A stretch of DNA of 64,000 nt from a virus (IMGVR_UViG_3300042894_002372:16421-80420); one strand, 5' to 3'; counted from the first letter of the stretch, positions 23,985 to 48,166 are shown. Numbers and translations: made by a program. The notes: generated from the sequence alone by a model not told the origin.

Positions 23985-24061
23985 TATACTGGTGAGTAGG
24001 GATTGCGGAAACGATCGTATCCGTCATCTTCTGGATATACAGGATAGTCGTTTGCGCTCAT
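23984..24061 (-). CDS. 25-residue microprotein coupled on both sides
   Basis: The ATG at 24061 overlaps the TGA of the upstream gene (ATGA), and the TAA overlaps the ATG of the deaminase gene (TAATG). This double coupling in a 78-base frame argues that it is translated. The product is acidic and aromatic (Tyr, Asp, Pro-rich: PVYPEDDGYDRFRNPYSP). Function unknown. Confidence 0.6.
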   Translation of the reverse strand: MSANDYPVYPEDDGYDRFRNPYSPV

Positions 24062-25242
24062 TTTTTAGGTTGCACTGCTGTTGGAACGTTTCGATACACA
24101 CGCTTGGTAGGGTCGTACACAGTTTTCATTGGGCCTGCACCGGCCAACTGTTTGAGACGAGACATAGCCGCATCAAACTTGTCAGCATCCATATTGCCGA
24201 CTTTTTCGCCTTCATCAATATCAGGCTCTGTCATTTTGCCTAGTCTAGAAATATGCGATTTGCTCATCAAGTGATCATCTTCCGCGTCCGGCTCTGTTCC
24301 GCCGTAACGACTAGCGTCTGCATGATGACGAATACCGGTTGCGGTCTTTTCAACTCGTCCTGGGGTAACAGGCGTAGTATCCTGCTGGCCCGATGGAGGA
24401 CGGCCACGGCCCCTCTCGCCCTCAGCCAGTTCGGGTTCTTGATTGGATTCAATGTAATCAGCCGCTGTGTCAATATAGTCAGCCGCATTAGTAATTTTCA
24501 TTTGTACCCACTCTGGCATATTTTCGTTGTCATCCAACATGCCGTTGAGTCTGCGAGCCGCACGTACAATAGTGTTCAATTGATCTTTTGCTTGGTCACC
24601 TTCGTAATCGTATTCGCCCGAGTCAGCGTGGTCAACAGAGTGGCCATCGCTGTCTACTTTGGCTTCCGCCATGCCTTGCTGACCGTAATCGGCTTCAATG
24701 TTATCCAACATACGATCATAAATTTGTTCAAAGTCATCATCGCCGTGATAGCCTGTATCGATAGAGATATCATCATACATGTCTTGTATAGATTGTTCAA
24801 TTTCTCGGCCGTATTTGCCTTGTTGTGCATTGTATAGCATGTCAAACCCGTTGTCGCCGGATCGTGCAACTTTGTGTAAAAATTCTTCAACATCATTGCT
24901 GCCAGTTTCCGCCACACCTTGAGGTTTATCGTTGGGGTTGGTAGTCAACATAAACTCTTTGTCTTTGTTGAACAGTTTGGCCTGCATTGTACGTGCGGCT
25001 TTGTTTGCGGCAGCCTTATCTTGGAATGCATAAGGATTGCCTGATTTGTCTCGGATCAGTTTTCCATTGAGGCGAATATACCAAGTACTTGACTGCTGGT
25101 CAAGTGCATGATTCTCGTCATTGGCGCCACCGTCTGCACGATATGCTTGTGAGTCTTTGCCAAAGCCACTGGTGCTGTTAGCAACGTCACGTTCATATGC
25201 ATCACGTGGGTCTCTCATTTCGTATAGATCATTTAGGTTCAT
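24058..25242 (-). CDS. Probable virion cargo polyprotein with [VML]AE sites (394 aa)
   Basis: No enzyme is recognised. The N-terminus MNLNDLYE fits an L-x-E prohead-protease site. Further sites follow in GVAE (109-112), GMAE (190-193) and ELAE (271-274), dividing the protein into four modules. The first module has a small W-I repeat-like fold (TWYIRLNGKLIRD, then AAANKAARTMQAKLF). The last contains GIRHHADASRYGGTEPDA and MDADKFDAAMSRLKQLAGAGP. The protein is acidic overall. It is the first of a run of similar proteins up to 36652. Confidence 0.55.
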   Translation of the reverse strand: MNLNDLYEMRDPRDAYERDVANSTSGFGKDSQAYRADGGANDENHALDQQSSTWYIRLNGKLIRDKSGNPYAFQDKAAANKAARTMQAKLFNKDKEFMLTTNPNDKPQGVAETGSNDVEEFLHKVARSGDNGFDMLYNAQQGKYGREIEQSIQDMYDDISIDTGYHGDDDFEQIYDRMLDNIEADYGQQGMAEAKVDSDGHSVDHADSGEYDYEGDQAKDQLNTIVRAARRLNGMLDDNENMPEWVQMKITNAADYIDTAADYIESNQEPELAEGERGRGRPPSGQQDTTPVTPGRVEKTATGIRHHADASRYGGTEPDAEDDHLMSKSHISRLGKMTEPDIDEGEKVGNMDADKFDAAMSRLKQLAGAGPMKTVYDPTKRVYRNVPTAVQPKK

Positions 25243-25940
25243 TATGCTTCCTCTACGTAGTCAGCTGACAGATCTTGTCGGCGTTGTCTAGCCTGGTACA
25301 TTTCCAAGGCCATCTGTGCTTGGTCTAGATTTTTAAAACGGCTCTTCATTGCACGGTCACCATGACGAATTTCAAATCCCGCACGTTCGTCTCCGTATAT
25401 TTCACATGAACGACCGTCTTCTAATGCAATGGTTTTAACCGGTGCTGATTCCGCATAGGTTGGTTCTTGCACAGGTGTTGTGGGCATTTGTACAATGGGA
25501 TTCTCGTCAGTGGGATCTTCTGCAACAGCAGTGATTTGTTTGGCAATGATGCTGGCATCTTTCGCAGGCTTTTTACTGATGTCACGATCTACTCGAACCG
25601 GGTCTTTTAAGTCAGTGTCTTTCTTTTCGTCAGCAATACTGTCAAGGTAGTCAGCAAAGGACTTTTTAACCTTGTCTAACTTGTCTTCACTGGTCACTGC
25701 TTCTTCCAGGGCTTCCTCGTCGTGCTCGACACTTTCGCTGGAGCCAACCATGTAACCAGCACTGGGTGCTTTCTTGTTGGGATTGCCGCCTAGTACTGGA
25801 CCTTGATCGGGCATTTTAAATAATGCAGGCATTTGTGGCACAGACCGTTGTTGTGCGTTCAATCCTTTTGAAACGCTATCTGGTGTGATAGTGCTTTCAA
25901 TCAATGCAAGTCTCTGCATTATCGTGTAAATTTCATCCAT
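25242..25940 (-). CDS. Acidic low-complexity phage protein, probable virion core or cargo (232 aa)
   Basis: Helical start (MDEIYTIMQRLALIE), then long Pro, Lys and Glu-rich linkers and a C-terminal small globular segment (SCEIYGDERAGFEIRHG, then LDQAQMALEMYQ) resembling the repeat modules of the 1295-residue protein. No enzyme recognised. Its stop overlaps the next start. Confidence 0.5.
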   Translation of the reverse strand: MDEIYTIMQRLALIESTITPDSVSKGLNAQQRSVPQMPALFKMPDQGPVLGGNPNKKAPSAGYMVGSSESVEHDEEALEEAVTSEDKLDKVKKSFADYLDSIADEKKDTDLKDPVRVDRDISKKPAKDASIIAKQITAVAEDPTDENPIVQMPTTPVQEPTYAESAPVKTIALEDGRSCEIYGDERAGFEIRHGDRAMKSRFKNLDQAQMALEMYQARQRRQDLSADYVEEA

Positions 25941-25941
25941 G

Positions 25942-26382
25942 TTATGCCCTCGCGTCCTTCAAATAACTTTTCAGTTGCCACTGATACTTGCCGTGTTGGC
26001 TTTGGCGTTCTGCGGCAAAGTTTGCAATGTCTTCACGACCTTCGGCAGCACTGGCTTCGAAAACTTGGCGGCTAAGGTTGATCATTATTTGGGTGTCTGC
26101 GAGTAATTCTTCCAGCATCAAGCGAGCACGTGGCACTTTGGTTTGATCCGGTATCTGTGTTAGTTCTAAAAAGCGGCTGAGACTGCCAGGGGCATATTCT
26201 TCTGTGGTGCGGATGTATTCAGCAATGGGATCTATAGCATCAAACGCATCTTCGTAGATCTTAGATAAAAACTTGTGCAATTCACCAAAGTCTGGCCCTT
26301 CCACATTCCAATGAAAATAGTGTGCCTTCAAATAGTACGAAAATGTACTGGCCAAATAGGTCTTTAGTAAATCACTTAACAT
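25942..26382 (-). CDS. dps: Dps-like ferritin (DNA protection/ferroxidase)
   Basis: 146 residues. The Dps signature is in KAHYFHWNVEGPDFGELHKF (19-38). Relative to E. coli Dps the ferroxidase residues are kept at the same spacing: His24 and His36 (12 apart), Asp51 and Glu55. The Asp of position 67 is replaced by Ser40. Dps dodecamers oxidise and store iron and bind DNA. In a phage, and placed among probable packaged proteins, it could protect DNA in the virion or after entry. It overlaps the 66-residue tagged gene by 11 bases. Confidence 0.9.
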   Translation of the reverse strand: MLSDLLKTYLASTFSYYLKAHYFHWNVEGPDFGELHKFLSKIYEDAFDAIDPIAEYIRTTEEYAPGSLSRFLELTQIPDQTKVPRARLMLEELLADTQIMINLSRQVFEASAAEGREDIANFAAERQSQHGKYQWQLKSYLKDARA

Positions 26383-26572
26383 TTGTTTTCCTTGCTTTCT
26401 TTCTCATACTTTTCGGGGTATTGGGAAAAGGGTCCGTGGTATATTTACCAGAAAAGAAACTATCGGGATTTCTTGACTGCATGCCGCCCATGGGCATGGC
26501 CACAGTGGCAACGCTACCACTACTGGTGGCACCAACGGATGCATTTTCTTTGATAAATTCCTGAGCTCTCAT
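26372..26572 (-). CDS. Small capsid-targeting-tagged protein (66 aa)
   Basis: Starts MRAQEFIKEN, matching the T4 internal-protein tag pattern with a FI-K-E site. The rest is Gly/Ser-rich then basic (ASVGATSSGSVATVA, then KSMRKKARKTN at the C-terminus), which suits a DNA-bound internal protein. The ATG is four bases from the next gene's stop region. No enzyme function expected. Confidence 0.6.
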   Translation of the reverse strand: MRAQEFIKENASVGATSSGSVATVAMPMGGMQSRNPDSFFSGKYTTDPFPNTPKSMRKKARKTNVK

Positions 26573-26850
26573 GTGAGTATCTTTAGTAGATTTCCTTTGA
26601 TTTTTCCGGGACCGTAATCCACACGCATATTTAAAACACGTATGGTGGCACCGGGAGAATTGACAAGTTCGTAACTGATTACATATTCGCCTGGCTCTGC
26701 TTCGATCTGTATCATTTCTTCAAGATACTCATCTCGCCAACGCCAGGTTCTTTCAGCAAATAATTCGTCATCTACGTAAACGCGGTAAACAGGTGGAGTT
26801 TCAGTCCAACTGCAATCAACGTCACATAGCACACGAATAAATTGTTTCAT
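26569..26850 (-). CDS. Small beta-sandwich-like phage protein (93 aa)
   Basis: Alternating strands (VYRVYVDDELFAERTW, then YVISYELVNSPGATIRVLNMRVDYG) suggest a carbohydrate-binding-module-like beta sandwich, as in some phage fibre or baseplate proteins. The same layout is seen at 39353-39787. A late motif CTAAATAC lies 3 bases before the ATG with no Shine-Dalgarno. Confidence 0.5.
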   Translation of the reverse strand: MKQFIRVLCDVDCSWTETPPVYRVYVDDELFAERTWRWRDEYLEEMIQIEAEPGEYVISYELVNSPGATIRVLNMRVDYGPGKIKGNLLKILT

Positions 26851-26853
26851 TGT

Positions 26854-26861
26854 GTATTTAG
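26854..26861 (-). promoter_or_regulatory. Late motif of the leaderless kind before 26850
   Basis: CTAAATAC then ACA and ATG on the minus strand. No Shine-Dalgarno is present. Confidence 0.5.
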
Positions 26862-26890
26862 TGTTATTAACCGCATAGTTAAATTACAAA

Positions 26891-26898
26891 TAAGTATC
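26891..26898 (+). promoter_or_regulatory. Late motif of the leaderless kind before 26902
   Basis: TAAGTATC then TAT and ATG. It is one base off the TAAATATC before 18575. No Shine-Dalgarno. Confidence 0.45.
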
Positions 26899-26901
26899 TA
26901 T

Positions 26902-28854
26902 ATGGCCAACATAACAATTCCTATAGTATCTAAACGCACCGCACCGGTAGTAACAGGTGACGGCGGCGCACGTGATTTAGCTATGATTGAAACCATGAAA
27001 CGCATGGCCGCTAGGCCCGAGCGCACAAGAAAAAATTTAACCCCTGTAAATTTACAATCAAATGTGTCAAGAAACACTCGTGTGGCACTGATACTTGCCC
27101 CAGAATGGGGTCCATATATTCCACCTTATAATCTTGCTAGACTGACCGCACTATCTAAAGCATCCGGGTATGCCACACAATGTTTTGACATAAACATCGC
27201 GGCCTATCACTACGGAGATAAAGACCAGTGGAACGGATACAATGATTGGCGCTGGAAAAATGAAACATATTTTACTGACATACACAGATCTATTGAACCG
27301 TTGTTGATCGAATACATTGACAAGATTGTTGCGTTTAACCCCACTGTTGTGGGTTTCAGCATTTATTACAGCAATAACCAATGTACCAACTGGATTATAC
27401 AACAACTAAGACAGCGTATCCCAGATGTAAGAATTATAGCAGGTGGGCCACAGGCCACGCAAGAACAACTTATTGCACCGGAGTTAATGGACCACATTGT
27501 GGTAGGTGAAGGAGAGATTATTTTCATGGATCTACTAGACAAGGTTGAAAATAACATAGTAATTACCGAGCATATACATCGCCACGACAAAGGTATTCGA
27601 ATTGACCTTGACAGTATGCCCATACCAGACTACAGTGATTTTGATCTAAGCCTGTACACTATGGGCACAGGTATATCTTCTGAAATGAGTCGAGGCTGTG
27701 TGGCCAAATGTCAGTTTTGCAGTGAAACCACATTCTGGAGATATCGTAACAGGCAGGCGTTAAGCATTGTTGACGAAGTGGAATTCAATTACAATCAATA
27801 CGGAATTAAAACAGTTTGGTTCATTGACAGTTTGGTCAACGGTGACCTAACAGAGCTACGTCAGTTTGCTCAAGAAATTGTAGCACGTAAAATAGATATT
27901 GACTGGCTAGGATATGCTAGATGTGATCATCGTATGGACATCAAATACTTGCAAGATCTCAAATCCAGTGGGTGTGCAGTATTAAATTTTGGAGTTGAAT
28001 CAGGATCTAATCATGTTCTTCAATTGATGAAAAAAAATGTCAAACGTGAAGCAGTAGAACAGAATCTAACTGACATGACAGTGATTGGCCTACACGCATT
28101 TACAAATTGGTTTACAGGATTCCCGGGCGAGACACAAAATGATGCTGCCGAAACAATGACACTACTATGGCGCACAAGAAATACCACCATCACTGGCCGA
28201 AACTTTGGAATCTGTAATCTAAATCCAGACACGCCGTTGTCACAGAATAGAGAAGACTTTGATGTAAGTCGTGGGCACTATGGCGGACATTGGGTGACCA
28301 ATGATTATACAAATACAATTCTGCACAGATTAGTCAGATATAAATCCGCTAACATAATACTCAACCATTTGCACTGCGACAACCGGACCCCGCCAGGTAT
28401 TCAATCCCGACCGGAACGCCCGGGTATTGAATCGCACTATGAATTGTTGTACGACAAAAACAACATACAAGATATCATACCCTACGAAATGTTTGACTAT
28501 GCCATAATCAAGCTGTCAACAAATCCCATTGCTGATTCGTTGGTAAACGAAATATGGCCGTTGTTACGAGTATTATGGTTGGCAGTGGGCGAATTTAAAT
28601 TGGATGTGAGATTTGATCCCACAATTGATTTGCCAGAATTCGGGCCTGGATCGTGTTTGAATGATGGCTTGCGTCCCAATGATTATTTTAAAGCACATTA
28701 CAAATTTGAAATTGGCAGACATGGTGCGTGGCATGCGGATTTTGCTACAGAATTACAAGCAGGCGGCCCCAATGGCAATCCCACTCAGGACGGAAAAACC
28801 TATGCATTTACTCATGCATGGCAAGGCACCGGAACCTGGGATCGCCCCGAATAA
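26902..28854 (+). CDS. B12-binding-type radical SAM protein
   Basis: 650 residues from the ATG at 26902, preferred because a late motif lies just before it. An N-terminal cobalamin-type Rossmann region (PYNLARLTALSKASGYATQCFD; VGFSIYYSNN; IIAGGPQATQE; VVGEGE) precedes the radical SAM motif CVAKCQFC near residue 268. Later parts resemble elongator/MiaB-like C-terminal segments (LGYARCDHRMD; FTGFPGET). The family does methylations, ring rearrangements and other radical chemistry. It pairs with the desaturase 31 bases downstream, which suggests lipid modification, but this is inference. Confidence 0.8.
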   Translation: MANITIPIVSKRTAPVVTGDGGARDLAMIETMKRMAARPERTRKNLTPVNLQSNVSRNTRVALILAPEWGPYIPPYNLARLTALSKASGYATQCFDINIAAYHYGDKDQWNGYNDWRWKNETYFTDIHRSIEPLLIEYIDKIVAFNPTVVGFSIYYSNNQCTNWIIQQLRQRIPDVRIIAGGPQATQEQLIAPELMDHIVVGEGEIIFMDLLDKVENNIVITEHIHRHDKGIRIDLDSMPIPDYSDFDLSLYTMGTGISSEMSRGCVAKCQFCSETTFWRYRNRQALSIVDEVEFNYNQYGIKTVWFIDSLVNGDLTELRQFAQEIVARKIDIDWLGYARCDHRMDIKYLQDLKSSGCAVLNFGVESGSNHVLQLMKKNVKREAVEQNLTDMTVIGLHAFTNWFTGFPGETQNDAAETMTLLWRTRNTTITGRNFGICNLNPDTPLSQNREDFDVSRGHYGGHWVTNDYTNTILHRLVRYKSANIILNHLHCDNRTPPGIQSRPERPGIESHYELLYDKNNIQDIIPYEMFDYAIIKLSTNPIADSLVNEIWPLLRVLWLAVGEFKLDVRFDPTIDLPEFGPGSCLNDGLRPNDYFKAHYKFEIGRHGAWHADFATELQAGGPNGNPTQDGKTYAFTHAWQGTGTWDRPE

Positions 28855-28874
28855 CAATTTAGCAGTAGTTTTGC

Positions 28875-28882
28875 TTAAATAC
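28875..28882 (+). promoter_or_regulatory. Late motif of the leaderless kind before the desaturase
   Basis: TTAAATAC then TCA and ATG at 28886. No Shine-Dalgarno. Confidence 0.5.
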
Positions 28883-28885
28883 TCA

Positions 28886-29590
28886 ATGACTGAACTTATC
28901 TATACCCTAATAGTCACACATATCACTATAATCTGTGTTACATTATACCTACATCGCGGGCAAGCACATCGCGGCATTGTTTTTACTCCTGTGTTAGAAC
29001 ACTTCATGCGCTTTTGGTTATGGGGAACTACCGGCATGGTGACCAAACAATGGGTTAGCATCCATCGCAAACATCACAGATTTAGTGATGCAGAAGGTGA
29101 TCCACATACTCCGCATGTGTACGGCATAGGTCGTGTGTTGTTCCGTGGCGCAGGCCTGTATCACTCAGCCAGCCGAGATGCTGACATGGTGGCACAATAT
29201 GGCGTAGGTACACCGGATGACTGGATGGAACGCAATGTGTACACTGCACACAGCAGACTGGGCATTGTGTTAATGCTGGCAGTTGATGTTGCGTTGTTTG
29301 GTGTGTGGGGTGTGTTAATCTGGGGTATACAAATGGCATGGATACCGTTCTGGGCAGCCGGAGTTATCAACGGCATTGGACATTGGTGGGGATATAGAAA
29401 TGGCGAAACTAAAGATCACAGCAGAAACATTGTGCCTTGGGATATTGTTGTTGGTGGCGAATGCCTGCATAACAACCATCATCTGGATCCTGCTAACCCT
29501 CGACTGAGCCGTCGTTGGTTTGAATTTGATGCAGGATGGATGTGGCTCACAGTATTTAGACTAGTAGGACTGGCTCGCTTACGTAGTTAA
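28886..29590 (+). CDS. Fatty-acid desaturase, delta-9 acyl type
   Basis: 234 residues from ATG 28886; the longer frame upstream overlaps the radical SAM gene and lacks family similarity. Three histidine boxes of membrane desaturases are visible: HRGQAH near residue 23, HRKHH near 60 and HNNHH near 195. Hydrophobic segments flank them. It inserts a double bond in acyl chains in the inner membrane using a ferredoxin-type donor. The 3' end overlaps the opposite gene by 4 bases. Desaturases are known auxiliary genes of cyanophages. Confidence 0.9.
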   Translation: MTELIYTLIVTHITIICVTLYLHRGQAHRGIVFTPVLEHFMRFWLWGTTGMVTKQWVSIHRKHHRFSDAEGDPHTPHVYGIGRVLFRGAGLYHSASRDADMVAQYGVGTPDDWMERNVYTAHSRLGIVLMLAVDVALFGVWGVLIWGIQMAWIPFWAAGVINGIGHWWGYRNGETKDHSRNIVPWDIVVGGECLHNNHHLDPANPRLSRRWFEFDAGWMWLTVFRLVGLARLRS

Positions 29591-29775
29591 CGCAGTTCTT
29601 TGATTGAGCCCACGTGCCAATCTTCAATGCGGTACTGTGCTTTGATCATTTGTCTGGCCACATGAGTGTTGGGAGCCCAGACCACTGCATCAACCCAGCC
29701 CACATATCCAGGATTTTGAACACGCACTTTGGCAGTCCATTGCTTTGCACCTCGAACGATTTCTTTGGCTCGCAT
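29587..29775 (-). CDS. Small protein with a single cargo-repeat module (62 aa)
   Basis: Starts MRAKEIVRGAKQW, a degenerate capsid-targeting-like tag lacking the final Glu. The remainder (WTAKVRVQNPGYVGWVDAVVWAPNTHVARQMI, read in two halves) resembles one copy of the repeated module in the 1295-residue protein. Its ATG touches the stop of the next gene. Confidence 0.5.
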   Translation of the reverse strand: MRAKEIVRGAKQWTAKVRVQNPGYVGWVDAVVWAPNTHVARQMIKAQYRIEDWHVGSIKELR

Positions 29776-31268
29776 CAGCAGTTCCAGCGACGACGTGCTT
29801 TACAGATGGCCTTGTCTGGCGTTTTGGCACATGAAATACTGTGCATCTTCATTTGTCCGCGACTGCGGCTACAATAACTCTTTCTACGCTTGCTGGCCTT
29901 GCTACCCCGCTTTAGTTTGCTGGGTTTGGTAGTCACAGCAGTCTTTAGTTTAGAACCAGGATTCTCTCTGCGATAAGCATTCACAGCCTTTTGACTCATG
30001 CCTGCAGTACGATCTCGTTTGTTGGCCTTTTGCCAGTCTTCGTTCAGTTGCGAAGTCACAGCAAACGCATACAGTTCATCTTCGGTCAGGCTTTCTAGGT
30101 CCTCCCATACTGCTTCAGCATCTACACCATTTTGTTCAGCAATGCCTTCGATAATAGATTCAATAAGATCAAACTCTTCTGTCAAGCCTTCTTCAGCATT
30201 GGGTTTGTCACGGAGTGGGCCGCCTGTGACCCAGGCATCGCAGGTTCTACGGCTGGCACATTTGAATTTTAAGAACTTACAATAACCCATCTCACCTGCA
30301 TCAATTACACCGGCTGCATCCGCAGGAGAGTCACTGTCGATGCCTTGAGCAATGCAGTCCAGGGTGTGTTGACGTATATCAAAAGCCGCACAGTTGCCGC
30401 ATAGGCTCGACTTGGCTTCGTCTACTGAGTCCAAGTTCCACTCATCAACTTTTTTCATCCAGAACTTAGTGTTGGGCATGTCTGGATTTAGCGGCCCATA
30501 GCCATAGTCATCAATGGCTTTTTGTCTGTTCTTGAGATTGAGTGTAATGTCTTGTGTAGCAGGCGGGCACTTGTTATCAGAGTCTTCTACTATGCTTTCA
30601 GCAGACACACAGTTGGGAACCTGACGGCCACCTTTGTTCTTCATGCCCTGTTGTTGATAACCGTCCCAGCATTTTTCATCCAGTTGTGCTTCCGCCGCCC
30701 CTTGTTCATCTATGCTTTCTCCAGTACCTACGTTATGTCTAAATTCAATGGCCTTAGTATCTGTGTTGTATATTGTAAAGTAAGTGTTTGGATCGTGCGT
30801 TTCTTTGGCCATTGATTTAACAACTTCAAAAGCTTCGTTTTTAGTTAATACTTTTGAAGATACATCTTTGCTGTTGATATAAACTTTATAAACTCTATCC
30901 CGGCCACTATTTAAATTCAAATCTCGATTTACTCCTAGTCTTTCGTCAGGAGATAATACTTTATTTTTAAACCAACGGAACAATAACCAGAAGAAATAGG
31001 ACATAGCAATGCCATTGACTACCATTTGGGCAACATCGTTAAAGCCTTCCGCCACACCTTCTGATTTGTTGCCATAGTTGCCCGCACCTTTTTTGCGACA
31101 CTGTACCAGTCGACCGGATGCATAAGCACTGGGCCATACTTTTGCACTAGCCTTGACCTTGTAGTAGCAGGCATCTTTCTTTTCCATCAGATCTGAATAT
31201 TCAACCACAGGTCCACCACAGTGCGGACAAGTGTGTTGTGATTCTGTAATGATATCTTTTATGTTCAT
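29775..31268 (-). CDS. Cys-rich mosaic virion/cargo protein (497 aa)
   Basis: N-terminus MNIKDIITES gives an I-T-E site. Modules in order: a zinc-like CPHCGG segment; KVWPSAYASGRLVQCRKKG; GVAE (about 69-72); one hydrophobic segment MSYFFWLLFRWF; a small W-I-type module; GAAE (about 190); CWDGYQQQGMKNKGGRQVPNC; a Cys-rich block LCGNCAAFDIRQH...YCKFLKFKCASRRTCDAW; then acidic GLTE/GIAE sites and a basic C-terminus SYCSRSRGQMKMH. These modules recur in aquatic phage proteins without known function. Probably packaged and cut by the prohead protease. Confidence 0.55.
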   Translation of the reverse strand: MNIKDIITESQHTCPHCGGPVVEYSDLMEKKDACYYKVKASAKVWPSAYASGRLVQCRKKGAGNYGNKSEGVAEGFNDVAQMVVNGIAMSYFFWLLFRWFKNKVLSPDERLGVNRDLNLNSGRDRVYKVYINSKDVSSKVLTKNEAFEVVKSMAKETHDPNTYFTIYNTDTKAIEFRHNVGTGESIDEQGAAEAQLDEKCWDGYQQQGMKNKGGRQVPNCVSAESIVEDSDNKCPPATQDITLNLKNRQKAIDDYGYGPLNPDMPNTKFWMKKVDEWNLDSVDEAKSSLCGNCAAFDIRQHTLDCIAQGIDSDSPADAAGVIDAGEMGYCKFLKFKCASRRTCDAWVTGGPLRDKPNAEEGLTEEFDLIESIIEGIAEQNGVDAEAVWEDLESLTEDELYAFAVTSQLNEDWQKANKRDRTAGMSQKAVNAYRRENPGSKLKTAVTTKPSKLKRGSKASKRRKSYCSRSRGQMKMHSISCAKTPDKAICKARRRWNC

Positions 31269-31699
31269 TTTTTAGTTCCTTTTGTGCTGACATTTATTGC
31301 TGGTCCTGAACGATTGGCATTGGGATCTTTACGGCGTTTTCTGGCTGCGGCACTGGCCCGGCCTTTTTTACCCAGAGCATGTGCTTTGGCCTGTGGCAAA
31401 CACTTGGGTTTGCCTTCTGATTCCGACCCTCGAGCACAGTCACCACGTATTTTACCGTCGGGTCCAAAGCGTACCCATTTGTCTTTGAACCAGTCACGAA
31501 GATTTTCATTCACGTGTGTGTTGGCATGTGCCTCACACATGCCACATGTTTCACACACCATTTCCATTTCAACTGATTCGTTCTGTTTTCGTTTACCGGC
31601 ACAGTGCGCCTTTTGTGAGAAGCCTCGAGGGTGGCTGCAATTGATACTGCTTTTGTATTTTTTGCTCCACTTTTCGAATACAAACTCACTTGCTTTCAT
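31265..31699 (-). CDS. Capsid-targeting-tagged Cys- and Lys-rich protein (144 aa)
   Basis: Starts MKASEFVFEK (tag with V-F-E site). Two recurrent phage modules follow: SSINCSHPRGFSQKAHCAGK, and a DWFKDKW...CARGSESEGKPKCLPQAKA part. The C-terminus is very basic (RASAAARKRRKDPNANR), which suits DNA binding inside the capsid. A late motif precedes it within the upstream gene. No enzyme recognised. Confidence 0.55.
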   Translation of the reverse strand: MKASEFVFEKWSKKYKSSINCSHPRGFSQKAHCAGKRKQNESVEMEMVCETCGMCEAHANTHVNENLRDWFKDKWVRFGPDGKIRGDCARGSESEGKPKCLPQAKAHALGKKGRASAAARKRRKDPNANRSGPAINVSTKGTKK

Positions 31700-32763
31700 T
31701 TTTTCTTACCTCGTCTCATATTTAGTTGCCACTGTGCCATCCTGCGGCGTTCACCTGTGCTGGATCCAGCAATCTTTTCCAGTTGGCCCAAGGTGGCTTT
31801 TTTAGGAATCCCTACTCGCTTGCTCAAGCCCTTGCGTCCAGGATTCTTACCATCTGCAAAATTCTCTGCTACACCTTGCTTGGGAATCAACAATTCAGGC
31901 ATACGATACTCACTGACATCTACTGGATATGGCTGTAGTGATGCTTTGTATAATTCAGCATATTGTTCTTGTTCTTCAGGTGTCTTGGCTCTGTAAAACT
32001 TGTTGGCAATGGCCATGTCGCCTACTAAAGTTCCTGGTGGAATTGAAATCTTTTTTGGACCATAGTATTTTAATTTGTCAGAATCTTTGTTGGTCAAACT
32101 GTAAAAGGTTGATTCCCATTTGTCTGGATGCAGGGCATATTGTGCAGTTGCTCTTTCTGGCACAAACTCTGCAAGTGTATCTGCACCAGGATGAAATTTA
32201 CCTAACTTGGATAAACTTATAGCAGTATCATTGCTTTCGCCTTCCGCCACACCTTGTGGGCCCTGTTCAACAGCTACATAAGCAGGACCGGTATAACCAT
32301 CTGGATACTTATGAAAGTGCTGAATAGTTCTATGCCAACCTTCTAGCAAATCATAACCATCGGGACGTTTAACAAGTATCACAGGTTCTCTACGAACACC
32401 ACCTTGTTGTTGTGCTAATGCCGCTTGAGTGGCATGTCTTTCTTTGTCTTTTGGAACACCCATACCTAAATCACTACTCCCACCGGCACGGCCTATTAAT
32501 AGTTGTTTAGTCTTTGGATCAAACATATCCATTGTAAACTTCATATCGGGTATCAGTTGCCATTTAGTGTTAATAGTAAGACCTGCACCTTGCACTTTTT
32601 CTATAATGCCGTTTTTAACAGCGTCTGCAGGGAGATTACTAAAATTGCCTTTGTTGGGTACTAGCCAATCTTTAAGGACATACTCAGGCCAAGTGGGCAA
32701 CAGACTCTTAACATATTGTAATAGTCTATCTCTATATTCGATTAAAAATTCATTGGCTCGCAT
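31696..32763 (-). CDS. Capsid-targeting-tagged protein with ParB-like domain (355 aa)
   Basis: Starts MRANEFLIEY (L-I-E site). A ParB/sulfiredoxin-like core is seen in REPVILVKRPDGYDLLEGWHRT near residue 135-155. GVAE sites follow near 177 and 298. The second domain (FVPERATAQYALHPDKWES to DVSEYRMPELL) is unrecognised; the C-terminus KNPGRKGLSKRVGIPKKATL...GERRRMAQW is a basic module recurrent in aquatic phages. ParB-like domains may act as nucleases or CTP/ATPases; here it could be a delivered effector. Confidence 0.6.
   Translation of the reverse strand: MRANEFLIEYRDRLLQYVKSLLPTWPEYVLKDWLVPNKGNFSNLPADAVKNGIIEKVQGAGLTINTKWQLIPDMKFTMDMFDPKTKQLLIGRAGGSSDLGMGVPKDKERHATQAALAQQQGGVRREPVILVKRPDGYDLLEGWHRTIQHFHKYPDGYTGPAYVAVEQGPQGVAEGESNDTAISLSKLGKFHPGADTLAEFVPERATAQYALHPDKWESTFYSLTNKDSDKLKYYGPKKISIPPGTLVGDMAIANKFYRAKTPEEQEQYAELYKASLQPYPVDVSEYRMPELLIPKQGVAENFADGKNPGRKGLSKRVGIPKKATLGQLEKIAGSSTGERRRMAQWQLNMRRGKKK
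31718..31725 (-). promoter_or_regulatory. Late motif before the 144-residue gene
   Basis: CTAAATAT on the minus strand, 18 bases before the ATG at 31699; a GAGG Shine-Dalgarno follows. Confidence 0.45.
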
Positions 32764-32764
32764 G

Positions 32765-35700
32765 TTAACTCACTATTGGTAGCACAGTAACATCTGTGCC
32801 ATAGCTGTAGCCATTGTCGGTCAACCACTGTGTGGCCACACGGTTAGCATCACGCTGTTGATTGCCTATGCCGGAAAATCTATGCAGTTCATTACCATCA
32901 GAATCTACAATCTTCCAAGCACCTGTAAATGCGCCTGGTACAGCTCGTTGTTGTGCTAGGTCTGCGGTGGATCCTGCCACAGGTGTAGATGCCGTTTCTT
33001 CTGCTGGTTCAACTTGATAGTTGCCATCAAAGTCGTTTTCTCTGGCCCATAGTGCGGCTAACTCATTGGCTTTTGCTCTAGTGTTTTCTGCAGGACGGAA
33101 ACGATATACTTCGCGATTTAATCCGTCAATAATTTTCCACTGTCCTGTTGGGCTTGTGGCTGTACGACCTGCGGCTATTGGCATGTCTAAGCCAACAATT
33201 CCAACTCCACCGACGGTACGTATGCCAAACATACGTTCAGCCTGACCTCGTTGTAGGCTATGTGGACCGTGTTCAATGTAATCATTGAGGCGAACCAATG
33301 CCTCTTCATCATTGGTGATTCCATCAGCATCCTCTACTGAGTTGCCAGTTTGTTTGTTGTAGATTTCATATTTGGGAGTTTGCTCGGCAGGTGCTTCGCG
33401 AACAGGAACAGCTGACCAACCGTTGTTTCTGAAGAACTCTTCCTCGGTGGCACCACTGGTGTTTAAATTCCATTCTTTTCTGGCTTTTTTCATTGCTTCA
33501 AATTCAGTAGAAGCAACAACCTCTATACCCTGACTCTGATATGGAGAATCACTGCTACCAGTGACTTTCCAAACAAAGGTCTGCTGAGATTCTTCATATG
33601 GACGCAACGGTTTGGCAGTCATATCTTTAGCCGTGGCCCAATCTGGGTATTCTGCCCGGCCTTTTTCAATTGCTTCTTCCTTGCTGGTAGCAACAACTTC
33701 AACACTGGCACCAAAACCTGGGCGGCCCACACGCCACCAATATTTCTTACCTTCGGTTGGATCTTTTTTAATTTTGCGTTCTAGTTGTGCTTGTTTAACA
33801 AAACTACGCAAGGCAGCTGCAGGAATCTTGCCTGCCACATATTCACTGAAGTACTTGATAGTATCGTCACCCTTTTGATCCTGCGTCAACAACTTGTACA
33901 GTTTCTTCAAGTATTCTTCGCGATACATTTCGGGGTTCAGGGCCGCACTCATGGCCACTGTGAATCGCAACAGAGTGTTTTCGATCTTGTCAAAGTTTTC
34001 GTCCAACCAATCGCCACCGGGTGAGCGGAATTCAATGTGTCCGTCTTTGGTATTGATACTGGTATACTTGCTAGTAGCACCTGAGTGTATGGCCTTGCTT
34101 GCCAAACTGTCCAGGTTGCCTTTCATTTTGTCCAGCAAACGTTCGGCTTCGTCAGGTTTAGTGCGCACTTGATCGCGTACCAATTTCATTGCTGATTTAG
34201 CGTAGGTATTGCCAGCACGACCAAAGTTGTCCAGCACATACTCGTCGCCCATTAACAGGGCTAGTTTAACAAAGTCCAAGTTTTCTCTACTGTAGTTGGG
34301 TACAGATATGTTGATGTGCAGGCCTGTTGAATCATTGGTGTAGCAACCATATACCTTGGCCCACTTTTTAACCTTGTTCAAGTCACTTAATATATCGTCA
34401 ATGGGCAAGGGTGGACTTACAAACTCCAGGCCTACATCATCGCTGTCATCGGCTTCTAAACTGCCATCAGGTTCCACAATATAATGTTGTGCAGTTGGGC
34501 TGGGTCTTGTTACCCCGCCACTGTGGTAGTTGCCGCTGGCTCGAACGTCACGTCCTATAGCATCTTGAAATTCGTTGGCAACATCTTCGATACTGGCCTC
34601 ACCGCCACCCTGTGAATACAAGTGAGGCCAATTTATATCATAATTGCTTTCAACGTCCTGCATGGTATTGATATTATTATCTTCCAGCCATTCTGATTCT
34701 AAATCTGCATTTTGATTAAAATCTTCTTGAGCGGATTCACGTGCGGCATCATACCAGTAGTTGCCGTAGCCTTCTTCAACAATTTTTTCGGCAGCATTGC
34801 GATATACTTGTCTATCGGGCTCTGGGTATTCACCGTAATCGCCGGGTTCTATACCTAGTATTTCTGCAATTTCATCTGCACTGGCGTTTTCTTTAATGTA
34901 GTTGTAAACAAATTCAACTTCGTCTCCGTCCCAACGAGTATCAAACGACTCACTTAGCCATTCGTAATATTGATCCTGCATCCGGTCACGCAGTCTAGTG
35001 ACATCGCCGCGGCTGTTGTAATCTCCATCGTAGAAGAAATCATAAGCCTCCTGTATGCTACTAACACCTTCATCGTAACTGTAATCGGCTTCCATTTGAC
35101 CGTCGTCATCGCCGCCTTCCACATTGGGCACAATCATTTCAAATTCCATGCCGGCAATAGCACCGGTCTTGGCCGCTTCACGACGCAGGCTACCTGTGCT
35201 CATGTTGATTTCGAACAACTCATCTTCGTATATCAGCGGCAACTGCCCAGTTTCTTTAAACTCACGCAGTGCATTGGCCAAGCCGGTCATTAACAAGCCT
35301 GGTTGTCCTTGACTGTTGGTCTTTAGTCCTAGTTTGTTTGCTTCTTTACCCACAGCACCAGGACGTACATCTCGGGTCAGAGCCATGCTAAAGCGTGGAT
35401 CCTTGGCCTGCTTCTTTGTGGGAATATATCCTGATGCTTCTGCTAAATCATCTGTTTGGCCGGCAGCAAAATGTTCCGGGTGCAGTTTGGCATAGTTACG
35501 CATGAGTACGCCGGCACGAGCATTGGCTTCGTTTTCGTATGGACTGCCAGTTTCGCCTGCGTCAGATCCCATGTCACTGCCATCACGTTCGTGTTGATGT
35601 TTGTGTGTGAGTTCATGTGCCACTGTGCGCAACACATCCATGATGTGTCGTTGTCCCCAGGCCACTTCTAACATTTTTTCATTGTCGTTGTAGCGACCAA

Positions 35701-36652
35701 ACGTCTTGTGCCGCACTGGCCACTGTGGATCTTTACGCAGGCGAACACGTGGCATCTGTTCAATTGTTAATTCTGCAACACAAAACTCCACAAAGTCTGT
35801 GAGTATATCTTCATCTGACTTGGGTTCTTCATTCAAGAACATCTGTGTTGTGGGACTTACTCCGTCCCATGAAGCACCAACATCTTCTGTGGCTTTGAAT
35901 CCGTAGGTGAATTTAAATGGTTTATCGATTTCAATAGACCGTTCTTTAAGACTCAGTGCTCGATCTTTGGCAGCGGTTCTGGCATCATACAACTGTTGTA
36001 TCACACCTTGTGAACGCAACATCTTGTACGCAATGTTTTCTGGACCCAGTTCACCATGCTGATCAAGTCCGGCTTGACGCATCTTTTTAATCTTGGCAGC
36101 AGTGTTGGTTAGACGTTTTAGGTTGCCAGATTTCACTGCTGATTCAATACGATGCTTGATCACATCGTACTTGCTCTTGACCGCAGTGTCGTTTATTGTG
36201 GAACGTTTTTTCAGTGGAATGTTGATCCAGTCGTTATTCAGCACACTGAATATGCCTTGACTCACTGCTGATTTGTTGGCGTTTTCCACATAGAGTTCTA
36301 CATCGTAGCCACCAATTTTGATATTGTGTGTTTCGTTGTACTGAAACTTTTTAGCATCAAACAGCTCGCGATACACTTCACTCACATCTGCTTCAGGCAG
36401 GTCAACTACCAAGTGCAAGTCTATGTCACTATGTGGAGTATATGTGTAACCAGCATTGCTGCCGGACAAGGTAATGTCTTTGACATTTAAGTCGCCAATC
36501 CCCAAACTTTGTTTAAAGTCTTCAGCAATTTTTAACAGCGTGGCCCGCACCTGTGGGCGCATTTTATTGCCCTGCCAGATGCGTGGGTTTAACTGTTCAT
36601 TAAATTTAACAGCGTCAGCAAGGTTGTAGGAATCTAGTTCAAGAATATTCAT
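32765..36652 (-). CDS. Polyvalent-type protein: nucleotidyltransferase, HExxH metallopeptidase and amidoligase domains with repeats (1295 aa)
   Basis: Start at 36652 is chosen because a late motif lies 8 bases before it. Domain 1 (about 55-130) is a nucleotidyltransferase: GS at 64-65, SDIDL at 75-79, then VELYVE. Domain 2 (about 290-390) is a zinc peptidase with HELTH (346-350) and ENEANARAG. A DDLAE site (401-405) starts a recurrent module SGYIPTKKQAKDPRF. Domain 3 (about 500-960) resembles amidoligases (GMEFEM, GLHINIS, EFRSPGGDW). The last 325 residues carry at least four short repeats. This domain mix matches the phage polyvalent-protein class delivered with DNA. Confidence 0.75.
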   Translation of the reverse strand: MNILELDSYNLADAVKFNEQLNPRIWQGNKMRPQVRATLLKIAEDFKQSLGIGDLNVKDITLSGSNAGYTYTPHSDIDLHLVVDLPEADVSEVYRELFDAKKFQYNETHNIKIGGYDVELYVENANKSAVSQGIFSVLNNDWINIPLKKRSTINDTAVKSKYDVIKHRIESAVKSGNLKRLTNTAAKIKKMRQAGLDQHGELGPENIAYKMLRSQGVIQQLYDARTAAKDRALSLKERSIEIDKPFKFTYGFKATEDVGASWDGVSPTTQMFLNEEPKSDEDILTDFVEFCVAELTIEQMPRVRLRKDPQWPVRHKTFGRYNDNEKMLEVAWGQRHIMDVLRTVAHELTHKHQHERDGSDMGSDAGETGSPYENEANARAGVLMRNYAKLHPEHFAAGQTDDLAEASGYIPTKKQAKDPRFSMALTRDVRPGAVGKEANKLGLKTNSQGQPGLLMTGLANALREFKETGQLPLIYEDELFEINMSTGSLRREAAKTGAIAGMEFEMIVPNVEGGDDDGQMEADYSYDEGVSSIQEAYDFFYDGDYNSRGDVTRLRDRMQDQYYEWLSESFDTRWDGDEVEFVYNYIKENASADEIAEILGIEPGDYGEYPEPDRQVYRNAAEKIVEEGYGNYWYDAARESAQEDFNQNADLESEWLEDNNINTMQDVESNYDINWPHLYSQGGGEASIEDVANEFQDAIGRDVRASGNYHSGGVTRPSPTAQHYIVEPDGSLEADDSDDVGLEFVSPPLPIDDILSDLNKVKKWAKVYGCYTNDSTGLHINISVPNYSRENLDFVKLALLMGDEYVLDNFGRAGNTYAKSAMKLVRDQVRTKPDEAERLLDKMKGNLDSLASKAIHSGATSKYTSINTKDGHIEFRSPGGDWLDENFDKIENTLLRFTVAMSAALNPEMYREEYLKKLYKLLTQDQKGDDTIKYFSEYVAGKIPAAALRSFVKQAQLERKIKKDPTEGKKYWWRVGRPGFGASVEVVATSKEEAIEKGRAEYPDWATAKDMTAKPLRPYEESQQTFVWKVTGSSDSPYQSQGIEVVASTEFEAMKKARKEWNLNTSGATEEEFFRNNGWSAVPVREAPAEQTPKYEIYNKQTGNSVEDADGITNDEEALVRLNDYIEHGPHSLQRGQAERMFGIRTVGGVGIVGLDMPIAAGRTATSPTGQWKIIDGLNREVYRFRPAENTRAKANELAALWARENDFDGNYQVEPAEETASTPVAGSTADLAQQRAVPGAFTGAWKIVDSDGNELHRFSGIGNQQRDANRVATQWLTDNGYSYGTDVTVLPIVS

Positions 36653-38580: not shown

Positions 38581-39336
38581 TTATCGATTATATGTTTTTT
38601 CGTCTATATAATCAGGGTTGATGTGTGTAAAATCAGCGTGGATGCTGTTTACTTGTTTTTCTAATTGTAACACATTCTCCAGCCACTCCACAACCTTGAC
38701 ATTGCCGATCTGACGCGATTCGCGAATATAATTTTGGGCCTGCTCAGAAATGCCTAATTTCTTATCAAACACTGCGCGGATTGCTGAATCTGGTTGACCA
38801 TACAAGTCAGCAATAACTTGATCTTTGTCACGGTCGTTGCCTTTGAGATACATTTTGCGTATTTCGGATGCAGAGTTAGCATCAACTCCATTTACTTTAA
38901 AGTTGATAGTGGGAGTGATCACAACGTAGCCATGTTTGGTCATGGGCTTGATTGACTTTTTATTTTTGGGCAATGGTTGTAGATAACCTGGGGAGCCATC
39001 TTTTTTAGGAGCAAAGTTAAAACGTTCAGCATCCTTGGCACTCACAGCAAATACCAGCACTGTGTTGGCTTTTTCTTCGTCAGGAACAGCACTGGTAATT
39101 TCAACAGCTTGATATGGATTTTTTACATTGACAATGCGACTGGCAGGAATACCCAGTTTGGTCATCATCATTACCTTGTCGGAGTAACTGAACGGACTAG
39201 TAACAGGTGCTTGTACACCACTGGTAGCAATGTACACACTGGCATCGCCGTACTGTTTGTTCAGCCAATCGTAGCTGGCCTTATGGCCTTTATGAAATGG
39301 ATGGAAACGTCCTGGGTAGATTACTAGATAATTCAT
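38581..39336 (-). CDS. Cytidylyltransferase-fold nucleotidyltransferase (251 aa)
   Basis: GRFHPFHKGH at residues 9-18 is the H-x-G-H nucleotide-binding motif and NSASEIRKMYL near 175 is the second motif (S-x-x-x-I-R). This is the fold of NMN/pantetheine adenylyltransferases. In T4-like marine phages it is often annotated as a nucleotidyltransferase. The insert at 110-150 (Lys and Pro-rich) is unusual. A motif GCATAAATATGC, both palindromic and late-promoter-like, lies just before the ATG. Confidence 0.8.
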   Translation of the reverse strand: MNYLVIYPGRFHPFHKGHKASYDWLNKQYGDASVYIATSGVQAPVTSPFSYSDKVMMMTKLGIPASRIVNVKNPYQAVEITSAVPDEEKANTVLVFAVSAKDAERFNFAPKKDGSPGYLQPLPKNKKSIKPMTKHGYVVITPTINFKVNGVDANSASEIRKMYLKGNDRDKDQVIADLYGQPDSAIRAVFDKKLGISEQAQNYIRESRQIGNVKVVEWLENVLQLEKQVNSIHADFTHINPDYIDEKTYNR

Positions 39337-46232: not shown

Positions 46233-46850
46233 TTATGCTCCTAGTATATGTAATGCGTGTTCAGTGTGCTTGATGCGATCTTCTAAGCCAATATAGCCAC
46301 CGTTGATGGCTCGTGTTAGTCCCTTGGTATCATTTGCATCAGCAAATCTATTTAAGTTATTTTGTTCCCAAAAGAAACAAGCACTCTGTGCGGCACCTTC
46401 GAATGTGGCCAGGTACTCGGCAGCTTCTTCTACTGAAATGCCTAGTGATCCTGCAAAAAATGTGTAGTTGTCTTTGCCGGTCAACTGAATAAGTCCACGA
46501 CCACAAAAACGCCAGCCATCGCCTGATGTTTCGTCGCCGTTGCCCATGCGATTGGCATACACTCTGTTGGCAATGCGCTCGGGTTTGTTGGCGTATTGTT
46601 GTGCTAGTTCTGCTGTGGGGAAATACTTTTTAAACACCGTCATCAAACTGGCGGCCTTGTAGTTTAGGTTTTCTTTGATAAAAACAAAATTGCCCGACTC
46701 GTGTGCGCACTGTGCCACAAAGTGTGCCACACGCAGGGGTGTGTTGATTTCGTAATCATCCAACAACTGGTCCAGTGCTTCGTGCCAGTGCGTGATATGG
46801 GGGTTCTTGACCATTTGTTTTAGTTGGTCCAGTGCTAGTATACTACTCAT
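46233..46850 (-). CDS. GH19 endolysin (chitinase-type muramidase)
   Basis: 205 residues. GH19 signatures: FVAQCAHESGNF (catalytic Glu, near 51), FCGRGLIQLTGKDNY near 112-126, and a Trp/Asn-rich FFWEQNNLNRFAD near 160. It cuts peptidoglycan at lysis. No signal peptide, so it needs the holin. An AAGGAG Shine-Dalgarno with a late motif TTAAATAC upstream (46868-46875) marks the leadered late kind. Confidence 0.9.
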   Translation of the reverse strand: MSSILALDQLKQMVKNPHITHWHEALDQLLDDYEINTPLRVAHFVAQCAHESGNFVFIKENLNYKAASLMTVFKKYFPTAELAQQYANKPERIANRVYANRMGNGDETSGDGWRFCGRGLIQLTGKDNYTFFAGSLGISVEEAAEYLATFEGAAQSACFFWEQNNLNRFADANDTKGLTRAINGGYIGLEDRIKHTEHALHILGA

Positions 46851-46890: not shown

Positions 46891-47535
46891 TTACCGCCCA
46901 GTCCACACCCAGGGATCATTGATAATTGGTGTACCGTCAGATCGTTGCATGAAATTGCCACCGTGCATATCCCAATGATATCCCCGGGATTTGCCAAGAT
47001 TAAATAGTTCGTCAAGAGTACTAACCATCAGTGGCATTCTCTCGGCACCCAATTTTTTCTCTAGTACCGCATACTCGTTTGGCTGATTTCTTTGCATGGA
47101 GTTCATAAACCCCTTCACAGTGAGAGCTTTGTATTGATGAAGCCAACTCCTAATCAGACGACCTAGGTCATCCAGGGCAAATCTTATTGGACCCTGAGTC
47201 TTTTTCAATGGCTCGGTTCGTATCATTAGATAGCGATTGTTGCCCCACATAAAACTGTCATGGCCATAAAATCGCGGCAACAAGGGATTGTTGCTGTGGT
47301 TGGTACAGTAGTCGTACCAGGTAAAAAACATCTTTTGATCAGGACTAAAGTCCTTTTTTCCTTGGGTGCCAAATATCTTCAACACCAAGCCGGTGCTGGG
47401 TTCTAAGTATGCCGTTTGGTCCACACCCTTGCCCAGATATTGATAACCCTTGGCTTCCAGTGCAGATCTGATGCCTTTGTCTGTGGTTGAAAATTCTTCT
47501 AGATTCTGCTCGTCGATAAATTCCTGCGATCTCAT
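46891..47535 (-). CDS. Capsid-targeting-tagged protein-kinase-like protein (214 aa)
   Basis: Starts MRSQEFIDEQ (I-D-E site). A kinase-like core follows: Gly-rich loop GKGVDQTAY (35-43), VLKIFG with Lys53, then HWDMHGGN with Asp189 and Asn194, and IIND with Asp207. The spacing Asp-5-Asn-13-Asp equals that of the catalytic loop and DFG Asp in eukaryotic-type kinases. It is short for a kinase, with a reduced C-lobe. It may be delivered with the DNA and act on host proteins; that is inference. Confidence 0.65.
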   Translation of the reverse strand: MRSQEFIDEQNLEEFSTTDKGIRSALEAKGYQYLGKGVDQTAYLEPSTGLVLKIFGTQGKKDFSPDQKMFFTWYDYCTNHSNNPLLPRFYGHDSFMWGNNRYLMIRTEPLKKTQGPIRFALDDLGRLIRSWLHQYKALTVKGFMNSMQRNQPNEYAVLEKKLGAERMPLMVSTLDELFNLGKSRGYHWDMHGGNFMQRSDGTPIINDPWVWTGR

Positions 47536-47813: not shown

Positions 47814-48166
47814 TTCCTATGCCCTTGACTTTCGGGTGCCATTCCCCAGGATGCATCTTCAGCGGCTTTCCGGGGCAATGATTTATAATTTTGTTTACGA
47901 TCAGCACCGTGGAACTCTCGAGCAACATCCGGACTGATGCCAACTTTCTTGGCAAACTTGGGATTGTGTGCTGCCGCTGCCATTGTACGGAATTGTGCTT
48001 GGCTAGTAGACTTTTCGTCTAGTTCTTGTTCCGCTAAGCCACCTGCGGCTGCATCTTGCGCAGACATACGAACAGTTTCTGCATCACGTTCGGCATCTGC
48101 TGCCTGTGATTCCCAACTGTCAGGATTGTCGGGTTGATCTTCAATTATAAATTCACGTGCTCTCAT
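47810..48166 (-). CDS. Capsid-targeting-tagged small protein (118 aa)
   Basis: Starts MRAREFIIED (I-I-E site). An acidic, Ala-rich linker follows with GLAE near 45, then AAAAHNPKFAKKVGISPDVAREF, a module I recognise from other aquatic phage proteins. The C-terminus is basic. It overlaps both spanin genes, so a cargo gene lies between them. Confidence 0.55.
   Translation of the reverse strand: MRAREFIIEDQPDNPDSWESQAADAERDAETVRMSAQDAAAGGLAEQELDEKSTSQAQFRTMAAAAHNPKFAKKVGISPDVAREFHGADRKQNYKSLPRKAAEDASWGMAPESQGHRK

Follow-up and report, generated by a model that had tools for sequence, protein, structure and literature searches.

The question raised by this locus is why viral proteins with unrelated bodies should begin with nearly the same nine residues, M-R-[AS]-x-E-F-[ILV]-x-E. 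The stretch of DNA analyzed here (the window) is 64,000 nucleotides long and covers bases 16421-80420 of the 80,420-bp virus record IMGVR_UViG_3300042894_002372 (G000), in which 98 genes were called; by megablast, the window had no match among known phages. The shared peptide resembles the capsid-targeting sequence (CTS) of T4 internal proteins. T4 IPIII depends on its ten N-terminal residues to enter the head; of these, residues 4 and 7 serve targeting and residues 8 and 10 serve processing, and the prohead protease gp21 cuts after L-x-E or I-x-E (PMC9026906). We conclude that the proteins studied here are very probably virion cargo of a large T4-type lake phage, which carry a nine-residue CTS, would be trimmed by a gp21-type protease, include modular polyproteins that would also be split, and exchange their modules.

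All five tagged N-termini listed in the original prediction were recovered, all on the minus strand. The positions given for them belong to the tagged open reading frames (ORFs) but mark their low, stop-codon ends; the genes start at 26572 (MRAQEFIKE), 31699 (MKASEFVFE), 32763 (MRANEFLIE), 47535 (MRSQEFIDE) and 48166 (MRAREFIIE). Similarly, the tagged run had been placed at 24058-36652, which holds three of the five tags, whereas the other two lie 10-15 kb away (46.9-48.2 kb). Two genes on the plus strand, 26842-28854 and 28661-29590, break up the operon at 24058-36652. Two neighbors that had been singled out, beginning MNIKDIITE (start 31268) and MNLNDLYE (start 25242), were also found and have weaker forms of the tag. 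Under the strict pattern M-x3-E-F-[ILVM]-x-E, five of the 98 genes match, compared to 0.0039 expected from shuffling the N-terminal 60 residues of each gene product (at most 1 in 20,000 shuffles). The tags are as follows; here and below, a slash marks a predicted cut.

26546-26572, minus strand: tag MRAQEFIKE/ of a 66-residue protein, followed by NASVGATSSGSVATVA; 98.5% identical in the related record G004.
31673-31699, minus strand: tag MKASEFVFE/ ahead of a WSKKYKSSINC module, which directly follows [LIVM]xE in 45 of its 48 distinct contexts.
32737-32763, minus strand: tag MRANEFLIE/ of a ParB-like protein; E9 is invariant across 14 homologues.
31242-31268, minus strand: weaker tag MNIKDIITE/ of a 497-residue polyprotein; the homologous module stands behind QGMAE or SVAE in other phages.
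47509-47535, minus strand: tag MRSQEFIDE/ of a kinase-like protein; residues 1-15 of the model have low confidence.
48140-48166, minus strand: tag MRAREFIIE/ of a 118-residue protein; second site ELDE/KSTSQAQF (48014-48016).

At 29587-29775 (minus strand), a 62-residue protein (MRAKEIVRGAKQW...) resembles a tagged 67-residue protein of related locus L120 (MRATEFLCEELLPGF...), with the tag decayed and its final Glu gone.

Conservation of the tag was assessed in 158 related loci obtained by two scans of IMG/VR. The strict pattern opens 83 distinct proteins in these loci, compared to an average of 1.4 for permuted motifs (one permutation reached 24), and a broad form of the tag was found on 29 body clusters with no BLAST match to one another. 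Codons at A3, E5, F6, I7 and E9 match the average usage of the genomes, and only Arg2 favors one codon, AGA, nearly always. Since synonymous codons otherwise follow genome usage, selection acts on the tag peptide rather than on its DNA. At the predicted cut, P3 is I, L or V in 44, 18 and 15 of 77 tags, and P1 is E in all 77 (fixed by the search pattern). When the 14 ParB-like homologues are aligned, untagged copies included, internal copies drop M-R-A-x-E-F and retain [LI]xE, and this separation of targeting from processing residues mirrors that of T4 itself. Cargo behind tags in the relatives includes ART-PolyVal (E 4.7e-14), Zeta toxin (E 9.6e-15), GNAT and GH19 domains.

The tag was then compared with capsid maturation in the same phages. 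Among 20 long related records, 9 encode both the gp21 prohead protease (PF03420) and the gp23 capsid protein (PF07068), and the remaining 11 have neither. One of the nine, G004 (346,856 bp), is syntenic with the window cluster, with most blocks 77-98% identical (Dps-like protein, 95%; 66-residue protein, 98.5%; 1295-residue protein, 83%). Capsid proteins of the clade read ...NTRKYLKE/NASAGSTASGNIATLNRVILP, the cut position being taken from T4 homology, and the tagged 66-residue protein reads MRAQEFIKE/NASVGATSSGSVATVAMP; its EFIKE/NASVGATSSGSVATVA copies the capsid cleavage site and mature N-arm of the relatives, KYLKE/NASAGSTASGNIATLN. About ten further cargo proteins, small or large, repeat the capsid site and arm, as in MKIRDILE/SATAGATSAGNIAAV and ...RYVLE/SASGGGTSAGSVASV. 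This mimic and its neighbor in the operon are:

26375-26572, minus strand: 66-residue tagged protein, capsid N-arm mimic; homologues in 51 loci; phrog_17311, no function.
25945-26382, minus strand: Dps/ferritin-like DNA-binding protein, untagged; PF00210, E 1.6e-20; phrog_3636.

The Dps/ferritin-like gene overlaps the end of the mimic gene, and the pair is kept in G004.

Evidence that proteins with a T4-like form of the tag are present in virions comes from isolated cyanophages. The comparison was limited to S-CREM2 and S-SCSM1; S-CBWM1 and part of S-CREM1, which are without virion labels, were left out. In S-CREM2 virions, 52 of 219 ORFs were detected by mass spectrometry (PMC10665884). Ten-residue, T4-like tags are present on its ORF6 SAM hydrolase (MKDFDSFLEE), ORF13 (MKDLHSFLTE), ORF14 APH-like kinase (MKRFDAFLTE), ORF136 (MQTFSMFFSE) and ORF154 cytidylyltransferase (MKNFSSFLTE), and all five proteins are in the virion (hypergeometric p = 0.0006, an optimistic value, as the pattern was widened after the proteome was seen). 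With the pattern fixed, S-SCSM1 has two matches at annotated gene starts, one of which, the NMNAT MKSFLQFLKE, is labelled a virion protein. Pooled, virion detection holds for six of seven T4-like-tagged proteins (Fisher p = 0.0003). The tag is also found on S-CRM01 and P-SSM2 homologues. Likeness to S-CREM2, S-SCSM1 and S-CRM01 lies in the tagged kinase, cytidylyltransferase/NMNAT and SAM hydrolase (virion-found in S-CREM2 and S-SCSM1), although the ten-residue cyanophage tags are nearer to T4 than the window tag is. The N-terminal domain of the 1295-residue window protein is homologous to S-CREM2 ORF156, a virion-detected protein. The S-CREM2 publication does not mention a targeting sequence (PMC10665884).

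Two virion-found cyanophage proteins, S-SCSM1 ORF97 (L396:43121-43306) and S-CREM2 ORF160 (L387:38342-39235), reproduce the mature N-arm (GFTG..A..GP.AGYDP) of the major capsid protein of the same phage, in parallel to the 66-residue protein of the window. Separately, the virion-detected, Cas9-like S-CREM2 ORF12 (L385:7704-10313) has RFASFMAE/A at about residue 24, which may be an internal variant of the tag.

A T4-type CTS is N-terminal, about ten residues long and carried by unrelated bodies, with L or I at P3 and E at P1. The window tag has all of these features at nine residues rather than ten, and retains the equivalents of F7, I8 and E10. Four independent lines, the gp21- and gp23-bearing relatives, the match to the capsid site, the cyanophage virion data and the T4-matching positions, support the original proposal that these N-termini are capsid-targeting tags cut by a prohead protease.

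Candidate sites for the protease also lie at module starts inside longer proteins. Modules that directly follow the tag in one phage recur as internal parts of a longer protein in another. In distinct contexts, [LIVM]xE lies directly ahead of the module for NLRxWF (24/25), DWQK (13/13), WSxKYK (45/48), AFDxPY (8/8), ParB-like (11/12) and NFADGK (17/20) modules, and for a looser KCW pattern (26/42), compared to a background of ~1% at random positions. This per-module test gave no [LIVM]xE signal for CPxCGG, a module whose starting point is uncertain. At the left edges of BLAST matches, with VAE removed, [LIVM]xE was present in 36%, compared to 13-17% at control offsets, and there was no clear rise of [LIVM]xD, xK or xQ.

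Twin-arginine translocation (Tat) signals provide a further association with these sites. Both at N-termini and deep in polyproteins, Tat signals lie 1-2 residues behind IxE or VxE, as in QGVAE/DL-SRRGFLKG at residue 608 (L361) and GIEE/DL-SRRGFLQG at residue 1125 (L110). Tat signals behind prohead-protease-like sites were found in loci L118, L280, L298, L361, L110, L093, L030 and L032, some of them on lysozyme-like proteins; three N-terminal examples with a strict or near-strict tag have one homologous lysozyme-like body. An internal Tat signal can act only once cleavage frees it, and a Tat signal behind a predicted cut site suggests virion cargo intended for export after injection.

Many junctions in lake-virus proteins are formed by one linker, QGVAE, which occurs in the window at:

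32242-32256, minus strand: CAAGGTGTGGCGGAA (QGVAE) in the 355-residue protein.
31864-31878, minus strand: variant CAAGGTGTAGCAGAG (QGVAE/NFADGK) in the 355-residue protein.
24907-24921, minus strand: CAAGGTGTGGCGGAA (QGVAE) in the 394-residue protein.

This linker is conserved as DNA. The 15-bp CAAGGTGTGGCGGAA is near-invariant (exact in 50 of 73 sites), and its Ala codon is GCG in 65 of 73, compared to 8% in genome use. An IMG/VR scan with the linker 17-mer returned at least 120 stretches, and extra loci were added to the set for the linker analysis. Of 110 contexts of the linker core, 101 are in one frame and in the sense of a called gene, and most others fall in stretches without a called gene. 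In the enlarged set, 277 linker contexts are open on both sides and link 170 upstream with 184 downstream module clusters; at least two different partners are seen for 46 of the upstream modules. A recombination seam is the simplest reading of this DNA. Translation initiating internally at the linker was dismissed, as no Met occurs among the residues just behind the linkers in this record. Conservation of QGVAE for protease cutting was also considered, and is weakened by the DNA-level conservation seen in the GCG bias; we therefore regard the linker as a DNA seam first and a cut site second. Its V-A-E does fit the cut-site rule where a module adjoins (QGVAE/NFADGK, QGVAE/AFDQPY, QGVAE/DWQK).

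Besides the optimistic S-CREM2 p-value, several points weigh against cargo targeting and cleavage. The record that contains the window, an 80-kb fragment, showed no gp21, gp23 or other head gene. The aromatic residue 4, which matters in T4 targeting (PMC9026906), is replaced in the window tag by A or S, so that of the T4 pair Y4 and F7 only F is present (invariant by the strict pattern), whereas S-CREM2 tags have both; because of this replacement, we regard the window tag as a divergent CTS form, CTS-like in its working. S-SCSM1 ORF30 (MKTFKQFMSE) is tagged yet without a virion label, and the authors of the S-CREM2 proteome warn of possible co-purification (PMC10665884). The residue just past the predicted cut is variable. 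The BLAST-edge test also shows a rise of Glu behind polar residues (35% compared to 19-24%), which indicates that part of the junction signal is due to acidic linkers; given this general Glu enrichment, the per-module counts were weighted above the edge test.

The general excess of Glu at junctions is one point in favor of an alternative in which the tag targets and is trimmed, while the internal [LIVM]xE junctions and QGVAE are flexible acidic spacers and the cargo is injected intact, like the N4 virion RNA polymerase. Some injected polyvalent proteins are indeed packaged unprocessed (PMC5512222), and conservation of QGVAE as DNA means that protease selection is not required. However, ahead of several unrelated modules P3 stays [LIVM] and P1 stays Glu while the flanks vary, the D, K and Q counterparts show no clear enrichment at junctions, internal copies lose the rest of the tag and keep [LI]xE, and internal Tat signals right behind the sites could act only if freed. 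Intact injection is a real but distinctly less probable possibility. We consider it unlikely that the tag instead directs proteins to another destination, such as a chaperone, the cell membrane or a replication compartment of the phage; the missing aromatic residue 4 speaks for this, but the tag and the maturation site of the capsid protein are identical in form, capsid-arm mimicry accompanies the tag, tagged proteins are detected in virions of relatives, and relatives have a gp21-type protease. Least probable is that the common N-terminus lacks a targeting role and merely hitch-hikes as a 5' segment that recombination has spread through tandem genes, since, although gene segments are clearly shuffled in these phages and Arg2 is almost always AGA, the tag codons vary freely while E5, F6, [ILV]7 and E9 are retained, the capsid protein, outside the set, has the same kind of site, and independent cyanophages have a T4-like version on virion proteins.

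Under the favored reading of tagged, protease-processed cargo, M-R-[AS]-x-E-F-[ILV]-x-E would dock a protein to the prohead core ahead of DNA packaging, and a gp21-type prohead protease would cut behind the final Glu of the tag. The same protease would split module arrays at [LIVM]-x-E into separate effectors. Mature cargo (kinase-like, ParB-like, nucleotidyltransferase/peptidase/amidoligase, the capsid-arm mimic and others) would remain in the head and enter the host with the DNA, leading to host takeover or disarming. Modules would swap between proteins and phages, often via the 15-bp QGVAE seam. Packaging, cleavage and injection in this phage are what we infer from sequence comparisons.

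The cargo genes of the window on which this reading draws are listed below.

31268-31699, minus strand: 144-residue two-module cargo; predicted second site HVNE/NLRDWFKDKWVRFGP (Glu codon 31505-31507), of the NLRxWF type with 24 of 25 contexts at [LIVM]xE.
31699-32763, minus strand: 355-residue cargo with a ParB/sulfiredoxin-like module (about residues 10-165), QGVAE at 174, a middle module, QGVAE at 300 and an NFADGK module.
29778-31268, minus strand: 497-residue polyprotein; predicted cuts QLDE/KCW (Glu codon 30675-30677), GLTE/EFDLIES (30177-30179) and QLNE/DWQK (30039-30041, DUF6321).
32768-36652, minus strand: 1295-residue multi-domain protein starting MNILE/; predicted sites FLNE/EPKSDED (35828-35830) and DLAE/ASGYIP (35438-35440).
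24061-25242, minus strand: 394-residue linker protein starting MNLNDLYE/; linkers at residues 112 and 193; part-syntenic in G004.
46894-47535, minus strand: 214-residue protein-kinase-like cargo with conserved K53, D189xH, N194 and D207P.

The kinase assignment made in the original prediction is well supported by these conserved residues and by structure, the model (predicted local distance difference test score 84) having protein kinases as its best PDB matches (probability 1.00, with a low template-modelling score of ~0.4). Support for the ParB-like assignment is moderate, coming from the homologue alignment and from fold matches to ParB, Noc and sulfiredoxin at only E 0.02-0.1; the model of this 355-residue cargo is disordered in the stretches that surround the linkers (residues 169-247 and 277-309). 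In the 1295-residue protein, a Pfam amidoligase domain scores above the cut-off, and a nucleotidyltransferase and an M78-type zinc peptidase below it; this protein, like multi-linker relatives, combines at least two unrelated effector-type domains in one polypeptide, as polyvalent proteins do. Modules of the 497-residue polyprotein are fused with those of the adjoining ORF in phrog_727, and the C-terminal module of the 118-residue tagged protein, from residue 53, matches phrog_22033 and phrog_25121 ("virion structural protein").

Several neighboring genes were assigned by eye. The plus-strand pair that interrupts the cargo operon (26842-29590) comprises one radical-SAM-like and one desaturase-like gene. 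At 46233-46850 (minus strand), an untagged GH19-type lysozyme-like gene adjoins the tagged kinase-like gene, and at 38581-39336 (minus strand) there is an untagged cytidylyltransferase/NMNAT-like gene, whose cyanophage homologues are tagged and virion-found.

Compared to known systems, this cargo is like T4 IPI, IPII, IPIII and Alt in its short N-terminal peptide ending F-[ILV]-x-E, in the gp21 and gp23 of relatives and in ADP-ribosyltransferase-type cargo. In contrast to the T4 internal proteins, these phages have many more, unrelated cargo families, and their cargo forms multi-module arrays that are exchangeable and contain gp21-type sites. Polyvalent proteins, known from phages and conjugative elements, share with it ART-PolyVal, ParB-like, kinase, GNAT, Pol-beta nucleotidyltransferase, zinc peptidase, Zeta toxin and lysozyme domains, and are likewise multi-domain and predicted to be packaged and injected; their release was proposed to occur via their own peptidase domains (PMC5512222), whereas the sites here fit a separate T4-type prohead protease and an N-terminal tag. 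In the giant phages SPN3US and phiKZ, many head cargo proteins, among them ejection proteins with propeptides, are also reported to be cut after Glu by a prohead protease (PMC5694885, PMC10052503), and these phages are set apart as a diverged clade with its own cleavage consensus (see also PMC9026906).

The system is most likely an extension of T4-type capsid targeting to modular, gp21-processed polyvalent cargo. The broader proposition, that T4-type jumbo phages of lakes carry plug-in effectors that are strung together by recombination at a CAAGGTGTGGCGGAA seam encoding a gp21-type site, loaded into the prohead by a tag, cut by the capsid-maturation protease, in some cases left with an exposed Tat signal, and then injected, stands at an even chance in our judgment. 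To our knowledge, little has been established outside T4 on how polyvalent effectors and virion enzymes reach the inside of phage heads. A readable tag and cut-site rule would make virion cargo and its mature ends predictable from sequence across T4-type phages, including the abundant cyanophages, for which no packaging route accompanied the reports of virion kinases and NMNATs. The tags would also be natural short peptides usable to load proteins into phage heads, and the linker may represent a natural case of modular proteins built via a short common DNA seam.

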